Source of the DNA: Ilyonectria destructans
Lineage: Eukaryota; Ascomycota; Sordariomycetes; Hypocreales; Nectriaceae
NCBI GenBank assembly: GCA_020740775.1
Contig: JAHEWK010000011.1
Coordinates: 930,001 to 994,000 of the forward strand
Direction of reading: 5' to 3'
Length of the DNA stretch: 64,000 nt
Position 1 is the first letter of the stretch. Each line of letters starts with the position of its first letter. Position numbers and translations under genes: made by a program. The notes beneath the pieces are model-generated. The model saw only the letters and a list, made by a program, of their open reading frames with translations. It had not been told where the DNA came from and did no database searches. Of this stretch, positions 40,852 to 47,012 are shown piece by piece.

Positions 40852-40979
40852 GCGGGTTTAGCTCAGTTGGGGTATGTTCACACATTAATCCCTCACTCCA
40901 AGCAAATCACTAACCTTCACTGGCAGAGAGCGTCAGACTGAAGATCTGAAGGTCATGTGTTCGATCCACATAAACCGCA
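40852..40979 (+). tRNA. tRNA-Phe(GAA), copy 1, with a 55-nt spliceosomal-like insert in the D-loop
   Basis: 5' part 40852-40871 (acceptor GCGGGTT, D-stem GCTC, loop AGTTGGG), insert 40872-40926, 3' part 40927-40979. Joined, it is a 73-nt tRNA with D-arm GCTCAGTTGGGAGAGC, anticodon loop CTGAAGA (GAA, Phe), T-arm ATGTG/TTCGATC/CACAT and discriminator A. The anticodon loop has no insert at the usual 37/38 site. The insert begins GTATGTTC, has CACTAACCTTCAC and ends GGCAG, the signals of the protein introns in this window. The A-box is intact before the insert and the B-box after it. One G-A mismatch in the acceptor stem is the same as I recall for Neurospora tRNA-Phe. Confidence 0.9.
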
Positions 40980-40987
40980 AGGAATTC

Positions 40988-40994
40988 TTTTTTT
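40988..40994 (+). terminator. Pol III terminator of tRNA-Phe copy 1
   Basis: Seven T residues starting 9 nt after the discriminator base. Confidence 0.85.
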
Positions 40995-41071
40995 GGTTGT
41001 CTTTTTACCTCTTTGCCAACCTTGACCGAGAGGGAATAAATATGGAAGATTGAAGCCGACGAAGCACAAGC

Positions 41072-41199
41072 GCGGGTTTAGCTCAGTTGGGGTACGTCAT
41101 AACAACTTTCTCTTATACGAGACAAATAACTAACCTTCACTGACAGAGAGCGTCAGACTGAAGATCTGAAGGTCATGTGTTCGATCCACATAAACCGCA
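41072..41199 (+). tRNA. tRNA-Phe(GAA), copy 2, with a 55-nt spliceosomal-like insert in the D-loop
   Basis: 5' part 41072-41091, insert 41092-41146, 3' part 41147-41199. The 73 tRNA positions are identical to copy 1. The insert differs from copy 1 over its 5' two-thirds (GTACGTCATAACAACTTTCT) but keeps the donor GTACGT and the 3' block TAACTAACCTTCACTGACAG, so the splice-like signals are conserved while the interior is not. It is 220 bp downstream of copy 1, and the flanks are unrelated. Confidence 0.9.
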
Positions 41200-41207
41200 C
41201 ACTTCAA

Positions 41208-41225
41208 TTTTTGTGTTTCTTTTTT
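41208..41225 (+). terminator. Pol III terminator of tRNA-Phe copy 2
   Basis: T5 at 41208-41212 followed by a T6 run at 41220-41225. Confidence 0.8.
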
Positions 41226-41286
41226 GCCGAGTTACAGTTTCAACTCGGCAAGATAGTCCACATGAAGAATCCCGGCTCTCAACAAA

Positions 41287-41413
41287 GCGGGTTTAGCTCA
41301 GTTGGGGTATGTTGTCATATTAATCCCTCTTCGAGCCACATCACTAACCTTCACTGACAGAGAGCGTCAGACTGAAGATCTGAAGGTCATGTGTTCGATC
41401 CACATAAACCGCA
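41287..41413 (+). tRNA. tRNA-Phe(GAA), copy 3, with a 54-nt spliceosomal-like insert in the D-loop
   Basis: 5' part 41287-41306, insert 41307-41360, 3' part 41361-41413. The joined tRNA is identical to copies 1 and 2. The insert starts GTATGTTG, shares ATATTAATCCCTC with copy 1 and CACTAACCTTCACTGACAG with copy 2, and is one nucleotide shorter. The spacing to copy 2 is 215 bp. Confidence 0.9.
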
Positions 41414-42602
41414 AGGACTATCTTTTTGTAGTGCTTCTGTTCTAGGAGCAGGCACCGAGGTCACTGCCTTATTAGGCCTGCCCCCTGCCACGATCAGTTC
41501 CTTACTTTTTGTTCATATAATTGAAGTGGATTTTATACTCCCCTTGCCAACTTGTAGAGATGTTTGGGCAATGTGTGAGGGAAAGAAAATTTCATCCAGG
41601 ATCCATATCAGATGGGGTCAAGCTAGAGTAGCACAAACAGTCCGAACCTCGGCTCAAAGTTCGGAGGGAGGCATAATATGATTCATAGGCATATCCACAG
41701 AGCATGGTACACAACTAGGCTCTTCATTGGAGTTGATGCCTTGAACTCGGGCACAGTCCTTAAATGTAGCAGTAGTTCAAGTAGAACGCGGCCCTAAAAC
41801 AGACATCCATAACTTCTATTTAAATCGGTGGAACTGAGCGTTTGTTGCATGAGCTTAATGTCCTGAGCCGAGGGTGAGCCTTGGCGACCCATGAGAAAAG
41901 CTGCAATCACAAAGAACCCTGACTTAAGGACTTGGACTGTAATAATCGAATGTATGTCGATAGTGCGCAAGTTGGATTTTTGAACATCAAGACACACACT
42001 CGTTAGATGACAAGCAACTAGAAGTCTCTCCATTAGTCACGCTTCCTGTCACAACAAGCATCTTGGGTTGCCGTACTCGGATACCAATTCCTCACCCATT
42101 CGATGTTGTATGGAACCCGGACAAGTCCTACCTGCTGACTTCCCGAGTTCCGGGCTTCCGTCTGGGAATGTGCATCGATACGCTCAGCGATGGCGAGGTA
42201 ACGAGTTGGTTTGCGACTTGCAGAAATGCCTTGGGGAGCTACGGTCTGTGCCAACAGCCTTAGAGCGAGCAATGCTGCACTTTGCAGTTTGAACTCTTAC
42301 CATGCACTCCATGAGGACACTTGCGAATGTCTTGTCGCTCGCAGAGAGTTATGCACACTTGGGGGCGGTAGTGATAATGGACGCATCCGCTCAATTTCAT
42401 AACATCGGCACCGGTCAATACATTATTGCGGCGCCACAGGCTTGCCATAGCAGATCAAATAACATTGCCAAGTAACCCAAGATGCCTGGGCCTTTCAATT
42501 ATTATAGCATATACACCTCCATAGAGCTTGTGGCTGCCGAATCTTGGCTCATGGATAAGAGGTAGTGGGGAGTAGGGTCTAGACCTGACTTCTGACCGCC
42601 TT
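41414..42602. other. Intergenic region
   Basis: 1.2 kb after the tRNA cluster. Apart from the terminator of copy 3, I see only short unsupported frames. Confidence 0.4.
41423..41427 (+). terminator. Pol III terminator of tRNA-Phe copy 3
   Basis: Five T residues, 10 nt after the discriminator base. Confidence 0.75.
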
Positions 42603-44055: not shown

Positions 44056-47012
44056 ATGTCGACGGAAATCGTAACATCCCCTCTGAGATCCTGGGGCAGC
44101 GGCATCGCGATACTCAGTGGCAGGTCGGCAACGAGGCATCTCGCATGGCCTGAGCCAGAGCTGTCTGCCGGCCGCTGCATTGGCAGAGTCGGCAAGGAGC
44201 TTTGCTGGGTAGCTCAAGGCCCAGCGAGAGACGCATTCACGGCCTTGGCCCCAAAGATCAAGGCCTACCTCGAGAGGTCCGTCGAACCAGTATCGAGCTG
44301 GGTTACATGGTCAATCTACATGTTCGGCAAGTCGGCAAAGAACGCCAGCCCAGCCATCCTGTTCTGCTGTGAAGTCGCTGCACATCGAAAGCAGGTGAGA
44401 ATTGCAATCAAAGACAGCGGCATTCTCGATGAATTCCCTGGGATCAAGACGGCCCACATGCCTCGACCGCCTGACTTCAATCAGCTAGTTCAGTTAGCAG
44501 ACAATCTCACGACGTCCGCATCTTATCAAAGACCTGTCCTTGCGTCCTTTGCGAGTAACCCGTGCGGGATGCCGTTGTTCGTTGAACCGACTATAGACGA
44601 CGGAACTTGTTGCAAACAAGCTACTGTCGGTGGCATCATCCAGCTGTCGGACAAGTTCTACTACACCACAGCAGGCCATGTGCTCAGCCCTGATACGATG
44701 CCGAGTTGCGCGGAGGTTGAGGATAGTGGCGACGAATTTGAGATCGACGATGAACTTGAGATCGATGACGATGCTGAGGTGGAAGAAGTGGGATCGAGGT
44801 CCGATGAGAAAGCTTGGTTGACACAAACAAAGGACGCCGCTATGAGCTCGCGGTACGCAAGTTCAACCGAGAACGAGATGCTTCAGCCACAAATCTCATT
44901 GAGCATACAAGATATGCAAGCAACAGAAGAGGGATCGAAATGCAAAAGCCGTCAGGTCCCCGAGAAAGAACCTTCACTGGGCACTTTCCTGCCCCCACAG
45001 CGTCTGGGACATGTCTATCTGTCCTCCCTCGATGAACCGCCGTCTGGTCTTGACTACGCTCTGATCGAGGTGACCAAGCCCATTCACTGTACAGCGAACA
45101 AAATAGCCCCTTCGTCCTTTTCTGCACAGGGCCAAGCCAGGATCCAGCGTGTTGTCCTTGATGGCCCCAAGGACGTTAAGATCTTGAGCTCCACCTCTAG
45201 AGGAACTTTGACAGGAGTCATGTCAGGCACTCTTCTGTACGCCCGCCTCCCAAACAGCAGTCTGTTCCAGGACGTATACAACATCCTCCTGGACTCTCGG
45301 CTAGAAGCCGGAGACTGTGGCTCCTGGATCATTGACGCGGAGTCTGGGGACTTGTATGGACATATCGTTGCCGGATCCCCAGATTCAGGTGCTGCAATTG
45401 TGATACCTTTTGCACGCGTATTCGAAGACATAAAGGTGCGAGTAAACCAGCGACCTCACCTACCCCTAGCTGGAGCCGAATCCCTATACAATGCTGAGGG
45501 AGAACTGGATCTTGATCCGCATCCGCAACACATAGAGTCCGTCACGGCATCCTCTTCCAACGCACTATCGGAGTACGGCCAAGAGTGGAGCCGGGATTTG
45601 AGACGTCGATTTGAGGGCCAGCGGCGGATCAAACCATTGAATGAACTGAAGCTGTCACGGACTGAACGCCGAGCTACTATTGAACAAGCAATTTCGTCCA
45701 GTGAGGATGAATCAACCCGACCCCAGAGTGCACCTGGTGACGATGATTCAGCTCTACCGTGCACTGCAGCTAGTGAGGATGAATCAACTCCATTCCACAC
45801 CGGAAAAGCATCACTGCTGCAGCCCCAAAACCGAAGACGAATCCTGACACCGCTGTTCCCCCAGCCTTCAGCAGAAAACGACCAGGAGTCCAACAAGTTC
45901 CGCAATCTTTTAATATCCCTCTCCTTGACCCCAACGAGGTACGAGAACACAGGACTACTGGACGAGGCTCTGACCAACATCCCGTTGGACCGGATCTACG
46001 CCGAAGCTAAAGAAGAGAGCACGGTGCTCCAGGCCCGAGCAGAGTCATATGGCGATGGACGGCAGCCTACGTGGGACTACACTGACTGCATCATCCGGGC
46101 GTTGCTGCGATGGTTTAAACGCTCGTTTTTCACTTGGGTAAACAATCCATTATGTCCCGTATGCGCATGTAGCACCATTTTTATGGGGCAAACGAGCCCA
46201 ACCCCAGAGGAATCAGCTTGCAGCGCTTTGCGTGTCGAGCTCTACAGATGTTCAAGGGAAGACTGCCTGGCATACGAGCGATTCCCCCGATATGGAGACG
46301 TTTGGAGGCTACTTCAGACCAGGAGAGGGCGAGTTGGTGAGTGGGCGAACTGCTTTACGATGCTCTGCCGGGCTATGGGTGTCAGGGTAAGGTGGGTATG
46401 GAATAGTGAGGATTACGTGTGGGCCGAGGTGTACTCGGAACACAACAAGAGATGGGTTCACGTTGATCCATGCGAGGAAGCTTTTGATGACCCAAACCTA
46501 TACGCGGAAGGTAAGTTATTGAACCCAGGATCCTCCCAATCAATGACTGCCCTCCCAAAACACAGCACTGACATTTCGCAATAGTCTGGGGGAAGAAAAT
46601 GGCATATGTGATAGCGTTCTCCATTGAAGGCGCTACGGATGTCACGCGACGATATGTTCGCAAGGCGGAGCATGCGGCGGAGCGAAACCGTTGTCCAGAA
46701 GCTGTCCTGCTCTCTGTCATGGATGAAATCAAGAGCCCCCGACGCCGAAAAATGAGGGATGAGGATAAACTCCGCCTGGAAGAGGAGGATAGGCGCGAAC
46801 AGCAGGAGCTCAACGCATATGTTGTTTCAAGTCTCACCCTTGACTTAATCGCGACGAGCTCAGATCATATCGAAGATCCTTCACGGTTGCTAGTCAAGCC
46901 CCGGAGAGAGACAGCGAAGCACAGCCAGAAGCAGGGCCAAAGGCAGGGCCAGAAGCAGGGCCAGAAGCAGAGAAGTGGAGGAGTGGAAGAGGGACATTTA
47001 GTTATCCCTTAG
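44056..47012 (+). CDS. Fusion protein: chymotrypsin-like (GDCGSW) domain plus PNGase/transglutaminase-like domain without a full catalytic triad
   Basis: Exons 44056-46510 and 46585-47012 give 960 residues; the joint lies inside one long uninterrupted exon. Residues about 160-470 look like a chymotrypsin-fold peptidase: YYTTAGHVL (His208), LDYALIEV (Asp333) and [11 protein letters not shown] (Cys421 at the nucleophile position). An acidic Asp/Glu linker (about 225-250) and a Ser-rich linker (about 545-610) follow. Residues 620-960 resemble ascomycete PNG1: [70 protein letters not shown] and [12 protein letters not shown]. The PNGase triad Cys is Val760 and the His is Tyr787; only Asp804 remains. 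Filamentous-fungal PNG1 is known to be catalytically dead, so a non-enzymatic role is likely. The C-terminus has [10 protein letters not shown] repeats. Confidence 0.75.

Follow-up and report, generated by a model that had tools for sequence, protein, structure and literature searches.

Canonical introns of nuclear tRNA genes lie at position 37/38 and are removed by tRNA endonuclease, and the available text of PMC4090602 states that they are recognised by position and structure. The same text describes non-canonical introns in archaea, at 20/21 among other sites, and in nucleomorphs, where they lie in the D and T arms, with comparable introns in Cyanidioschyzon merolae; the available text of PMC3978253 adds D-loop introns in the permuted tRNAs of C. 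merolae. Other short insertions in the D or T arm of eukaryotic tRNA genes are mostly taken as pseudogenes in the available part of PMC4090602. A 2026 review, as far as its available text goes, places tRNA splicing outside the spliceosome (PMC13149111). Among the matches listed from the open-licence literature, with subscription journals outside the scope, none describes tRNA genes with introns of the spliceosomal kind.

Fungal nuclear rDNA is transcribed by RNA polymerase I (Pol I). The title of a reference in PMC11782384 concerns mRNA-type introns in fungal nuclear rDNA. The U6 gene of fission yeast has an mRNA-type intron (available text of PMC10484740), and B-box matches in Schizosaccharomyces U6 introns appear in the title of a reference cited there. 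Since fission yeast U6 has such an intron, there is a precedent for the principle that an RNA polymerase III (Pol III) transcript can carry an mRNA-type intron.

The window analysed here, a stretch of 64,000 nucleotides of the Ilyonectria destructans genome, contains three tRNA-Phe(GAA) genes with an insert in the D-loop, and inserts of the same kind occur elsewhere in the genome. Like canonical tRNA introns, these inserts interrupt the precursor and would have to be removed for function, whereas they differ from them in lying in the D-arm and in having GT-AG ends and a branch motif. The introns of archaea, nucleomorphs and C. merolae that are cut at a bulge-helix-bulge also lie in the D-arm, in archaea including position 20/21, but the inserts described here have spliceosomal signals and no conserved bulge-helix-bulge. 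With fission yeast U6 they have in common that a Pol III gene bears a spliceosomal-type GT-AG intron; unlike it, the hosts are tRNA genes of four isotypes, with other insertion sites and many copies. The rDNA introns of fungi are likewise of spliceosomal type in a non-mRNA gene, but their host is a Pol I transcript and not a tRNA. Judged by sequence, the inserts look like ordinary members of a known intron class in a tRNA host for which no record was found.

Interrupted tRNA genes in the window and in the genome

A first-pass annotation had placed three tandem tRNA-Phe genes at 40852–41413, and these outer limits prove to be exact (Table 1). The joined 73-nt tRNAs are identical, and the inserts, with the lengths, donors and CAG ends listed in the table, all follow AGTTGGG and contain CTAACCTTCACT. 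The A and B boxes are intact, position 37/38 has no insert and each gene is followed by a T-run, as the annotation had it. The A box is left whole by an insert placed directly after G20, and the T-runs, probable terminators of 7, 5 and 5 T, start 9, 9 and 10 nt past the discriminator base. ARAGORN and Rfam at its gathering threshold make no call anywhere in the window, the three Phe genes included. The window also encodes a predicted peptide:N-glycanase with 84% identity to an Ilyonectria robusta protein, followed by proteins of Dactylonectria, Fusarium and Neonectria (one protein searched), matches that place the organism among the hypocrealean ascomycetes, probably in Nectriaceae.

Table 1. 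Positions of the tRNA-Phe genes, their inserts and their probable terminators in the window
Feature	Position	Strand	Details
tRNA-Phe(GAA) gene 1	40852-40979	+	exons 40852-40871, 40927-40979; anticodon GAA 40940-40942
Gene 1 putative D-loop intron, 55 nt, position 20/21	40872-40926	+	GTATGT...CTAAC...CAG; branch motif 40910-40914
Gene 1 T7 run, probable Pol III terminator	40988-40994	+	
tRNA-Phe(GAA) gene 2	41072-41199	+	exons 41072-41091, 41147-41199
Gene 2 putative D-loop intron, 55 nt	41092-41146	+	GTACGT...CTAAC (41130-41134)...CAG
Gene 2 T5 run, probable Pol III terminator	41208-41212	+	
tRNA-Phe(GAA) gene 3	41287-41413	+	exons 41287-41306, 41361-41413
Gene 3 putative D-loop intron, 54 nt	41307-41360	+	GTATGT...CTAAC (41344-41348)...CAG
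Gene 3 T5 run, probable Pol III terminator	41423-41427	+	

A survey of the 71.7-Mb genome (74 contigs) finds a D-arm GT...AG insert of 51–56 nt in 22 of the 27 tRNA genes found for four isotypes, namely in 7/8 Phe(GAA), 6/8 Arg(ACG), 5/6 Asn(GTT) and 4/5 Cys(GCA) genes, leaving one, two, one and one uninterrupted gene, respectively. These counts are lower bounds drawn from the best-scoring candidates only, and isotypes beyond these four were covered non-exhaustively. The inserts had at first been seen in tRNA-Phe alone, a picture that proves too narrow: 15 of the 19 interrupted genes outside the window belong to the three other isotypes. A pattern of the Phe anticodon arm with up to one mismatch gives ten matches, eight of them exact, and recovers the three window genes, four more interrupted genes and one uninterrupted gene (C12:2346992-2347064, minus strand); the seven interrupted Phe genes are spread over five contigs. 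The proposal that the window locus may be the main source of Phe tRNA is borne out only in part by this pattern and by Rfam: seven of the eight Phe genes, four of them new, bear the insert, but the gene on C12 is uninterrupted.

The other isotypes were reached by several routes. Weak Rfam matches pointed to inserts in six tRNA-Arg(ACG) genes, arranged in tandem, and in three tRNA-Asn(GTT) genes, pattern scans supplied the fourth interrupted Asn gene and the first Cys genes, and DNA similarity searches for each isotype then gave 6/8 Arg, 4/5 Asn and 4/5 Cys genes with inserts. A diverged sixth Asn gene (L110), missed by the Asn DNA search, was added by a later pattern scan. The four pattern scans returned 28, 16, 41 and 11 matches against 28, 7, 36 and 17 in reversed controls, and matches were kept only with a visible tRNA body (10/28, 6/16, 9/41 and 2/11). 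No fifth isotype with such an insert was found in the D-arm pattern scans. The Rfam tRNA scan of the genome, with 63 scored matches, is judged incomplete because tRNA-Glu(CTC)-like genes with anticodon-loop introns are not listed there, and absence from it was not taken as evidence. Searches of viral and prokaryote contig collections, which are uninformative on fungal conservation, gave no relatives of the inserts.

Some features of the genomic arrangement were noted in passing. The six tRNA-Asn genes recovered, of which a single one is uninterrupted, map to one segment of about 136 kb on one contig (G000:C2:1402565-1538617), and the interrupted and uninterrupted sets of Arg(ACG) genes on C23 are about 72 kb apart. 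The tRNA-Glu(CTC)-like family, with an apparently ordinary anticodon-loop intron, occurs at G000:C7:595027-620667, at L081:2864-2954 and in other places. A further locus (L048, G000:C31:206000-206750) has tRNA-like genes in AT-rich surroundings on a 299-kb contig and is possibly mitochondrial or a mitochondrial insertion.

Splice signals, insertion sites and joined tRNA bodies

All 22 D-arm inserts begin with G1 T2 and have G at +5 (GTNNG), end in AG and contain a YTRAY branch motif, sought 9–14 nt from the insert end, whose A lies 11 nt (5 inserts), 12 nt (10) or 13 nt (7) from that end. Most inserts were first found through tRNA bodies or DNA similarity, and some pattern scans presupposed the GTNNG donor. 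Among the first six and last three bases, only positions 3, 4, 6 and -3 vary. A rough calculation assuming uniform independent bases puts the chance that four unrelated insert families share GTNNG, AG and a YTRAY within a 3-nt range at about 2e-18. In 16/22 inserts no other AG occurs between the branch A and the AG that ends the insert; in the remaining 6 an earlier AG lies within 5 nt past the branch A, and three of these, in the Asn genes L071, L073 and L081, have yet another ending 7 nt past it. AGs so near to the branch A are poor acceptors. TTTT occurs in 0/22 inserts and in 2/15 mRNA introns of the window; its absence would fit a Pol III template, the comparison of these two counts being weak evidence by itself. 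The A box, the B box, the T-run terminator and the lack of internal TTTT are all present as sequence features, a run of at least four T starting 1–25 nt past the matched gene end in 21/21 genes examined.

The likeness to the protein-gene introns of the window, claimed from the start, holds for size and signals: 51–56 nt in the tRNA inserts against 48–74 nt in 15 reading-frame-supported introns on both strands, with none in the reversed window. The scan required a GTRNG donor, an AG end, 45–75 nt, open frames on both sides and a branch motif, and so the likeness in donor and length is partly imposed by these requirements. Of 22 supported donors, 7 without a branch motif were dropped, and the acceptor nearest to a 12-nt branch distance was taken; two of the 15 introns have one acceptor in common, and the set demonstrates the existence of such introns in the window but is not an unbiased profile. 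One intron, 46511–46584 (GTAAGT...CTGAC...TAG), is backed by homology, with an alignment break in three of four related proteins: three alignments stop at 46509–46512 and resume at 46587, and the fourth resumes at 46527.

Numbered by hand, the Arg inserts lie at 19/20, the Phe inserts at 20/21, the Asn inserts just before A21 and the Cys inserts at 24/25, inside the D-stem, giving at least three sites in four isotypes; none of the D-arm inserts has the canonical 37/38 location. In the Asn genes the junction T/GT...AG/A allows a single register, and in Phe, Arg and Cys the register is ambiguous by 1 nt. For 21 inserts, the interiors (the insert minus its first 6 and last 18 nt) have a mean identity of 0.57–0.64 within isotypes and of 0.49–0.53 between isotypes, compared with 0.49 for shuffled sequences. 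Therefore, given this low likeness and the different sites, the signals are common to insert families with little other detectable similarity.

Joining the exons restores a cloverleaf with its anticodon. ARAGORN reports the expected isotype for 19/21 joined genes, including tRNA-Phe(gaa) for all 7 interrupted Phe genes; for L081 it reports a tRNA but gives no isotype, and for L107 (Cys) it makes no call. With the inserts present, only 6/21 are called (0/7 for Phe), each with a supposed anticodon-loop intron, the isotype being right in two (Arg copy 6 and Cys L108) and wrong in four. An Rfam search of ten loci at E values up to 0.1 matched L107 with its insert present (44.2 bits) and left unmatched the interrupted Asn genes at loci L081 and L110. 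By eye, the two Cys genes on C3 have a paired anticodon stem that differs from the one in the Cys genes of C1 and C67.

The interrupted genes can be compared with one another and with uninterrupted paralogues. Of the seven interrupted Phe tRNAs, six have one and the same 73-nt sequence and one departs from it at 2 positions, whereas the inserts have identities of 0.57–0.96 and most flanks diverge (60 nt upstream, 0.46–0.66 with one pair at 0.82; downstream, 0.46–0.64). The joined exons of Arg copies 1 and 2 (2/6) match the two uninterrupted Arg genes exactly, copies 3–6 differing at two bases, and in three of the five interrupted Asn genes joining the exons gives precisely the sequence of the uninterrupted one. 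Such exact presence or absence of an insert in otherwise identical genes would be the trace expected of gain or loss via spliced RNA.

Two Asn genes, L110 and L081, found near 1,410,450 and 1,402,600 of G000:C2, have a second insert. Between L110 and the uninterrupted Asn gene there are differences at 20/74 positions; removal of a 51-nt D-arm insert (GTGAGT, CTGAC, CAG) and of an 11-nt insert at 37/38, the limits of which were set by hand, leaves 21/21 pairs in the acceptor, D, anticodon and T stems (G-U allowed) and keeps the GTT anticodon. In addition to the D-arm insert, L081 has 11 extra nt in its anticodon loop; this second insert resembles a partial duplication of adjacent bases and may be an ordinary intron or belong to a damaged copy. 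Introns of the D-arm kind and of the canonical kind both occur in this genome, possibly together in these two genes, which would need two different splicing systems if both inserts are real.

Probable spliceosomal removal of the inserts and alternative explanations

The D-arm inserts are very probably U2-type spliceosomal introns that the spliceosome cuts out of Pol III pre-tRNAs. The first-pass annotation had offered either this or another cleavage system using the same ends, and the spliceosome is now the better supported of the two by the common signals, the exact intronless paralogues and the lack of a conserved bulge-helix-bulge. We infer Pol III transcription, excision and the spliceosome as the agent, all three, from sequence features. 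RNA polymerase III would read the gene from the A and B boxes inside it, left unbroken by an intron that lies just 3' of the A box, and would stop at the downstream T-run. The major spliceosome would then cut the precursor, with U1 and U6 acting at GTNNG and the branch forming at the A of YTRAY, 11–13 nt before AG, and splicing would yield Phe(GAA), Arg(ACG), Asn(GTT) and Cys(GCA) tRNAs with a normal cloverleaf. Group I and group II introns were set aside on length, and U12-type introns were set aside on donors and branch motifs of U2 form.

Alternatively, the tRNA splicing endonuclease might cut out the inserts by recognising a bulge-helix-bulge at a non-canonical position, as happens in archaea and Cyanidioschyzon. 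This would be in line with the D-arm introns of archaea, nucleomorphs and C. merolae cited above, and four weak pairs (GU included) can form at the helix position in 5/7 Phe genes. In the other isotypes, however, four pairs are found in neither register (Arg 0/6, Asn 0/4 tested, Cys 0/4), and so no conserved bulge-helix-bulge was found in a test of one cleavage geometry, the four-pair helix being limited to 5/21 genes, all Phe (L110 left out). The endonuclease also leaves unexplained the GT/AG ends, the G at +5 and the branch motif at 11–13 nt in 22/22 inserts, and two Asn genes have a separate insert in the anticodon loop, which makes this explanation highly unlikely. The possibility that the genes are embedded in Pol II transcripts, to be spliced within a longer RNA from which the tRNA is released later, would give the spliceosome access without any special link to Pol III; the intact A and B boxes, the T-runs nearby and the dispersal of seven interrupted Phe genes over five contigs with mostly dissimilar flanks argue against it, and it is the least probable of the alternatives.

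That the interrupted genes are dead copies, with the uninterrupted genes supplying all four tRNAs, agrees with the presence of an uninterrupted gene for every isotype. The interrupted genes are nevertheless the majority of those found in each isotype, with T runs downstream of every one examined, and six of seven Phe bodies have stayed identical while the inserts and most flanks diverged; L110 likewise keeps all its stem pairs despite 20 substitutions. Since the tRNA bodies are conserved in this way, there is very little likelihood that the copies are dead. Returning to spliceosomal removal, the spliced tRNAs need not be the sole source, because each isotype has one or two uninterrupted genes.

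U6 snRNA genes and the supply of tRNAs

Three U6 genes score above the Rfam cut-off; two measure 101 nt, and the third extends over 170 nt and scores lower (58 versus 83.2 bits). The long gene (L111, G000:C1:6743780-6744140, minus strand) has a 66-nt insert, GTAAGC...TTACTAACCCCTTCACAG, between AGAGAAGAT and TAGCATGG, which the two other genes lack, with a CTAAC branch motif whose A lies 11 nt from the CAG end and a B-box-like GGGTTCGAACCC inside. By its sequence, a second kind of predicted Pol III gene in this genome is thus a bearer of a spliceosomal-type intron. The 5' part of the interrupted gene is much diverged from the other two; the gene may be a minor or decaying copy, and its use is uncertain. 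The U6 set (L111, L112, L113 and L114) includes a weaker U6-like copy below the cut-off (L114), interrupted at this very site by 53 nt.

The splicing of tRNAs and that of mRNAs are regarded as two distinct systems, a division that spliceosomal introns at several sites in tRNA genes would break. If the interpretation is true, the tRNAs would be a second class of Pol III transcript, besides U6, to be handled by the spliceosome, and the genes would make it possible to test in a natural setting whether splicing depends on Pol II or its cap. None of the three window genes is called by ARAGORN or by Rfam at the gathering threshold, which suggests a blind spot of annotation, and genes of this kind may have been overlooked in the annotation of other fungi. 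It is rather likely, with less assurance than for the nature of the introns themselves, that the major spliceosome is essential for tRNA maturation in this fungus: most of the Phe, Arg(ACG), Asn and Cys genes found would have to pass through it, some Asn precursors would need tRNA endonuclease too, and the supply of four tRNAs would be coupled to splicing capacity.
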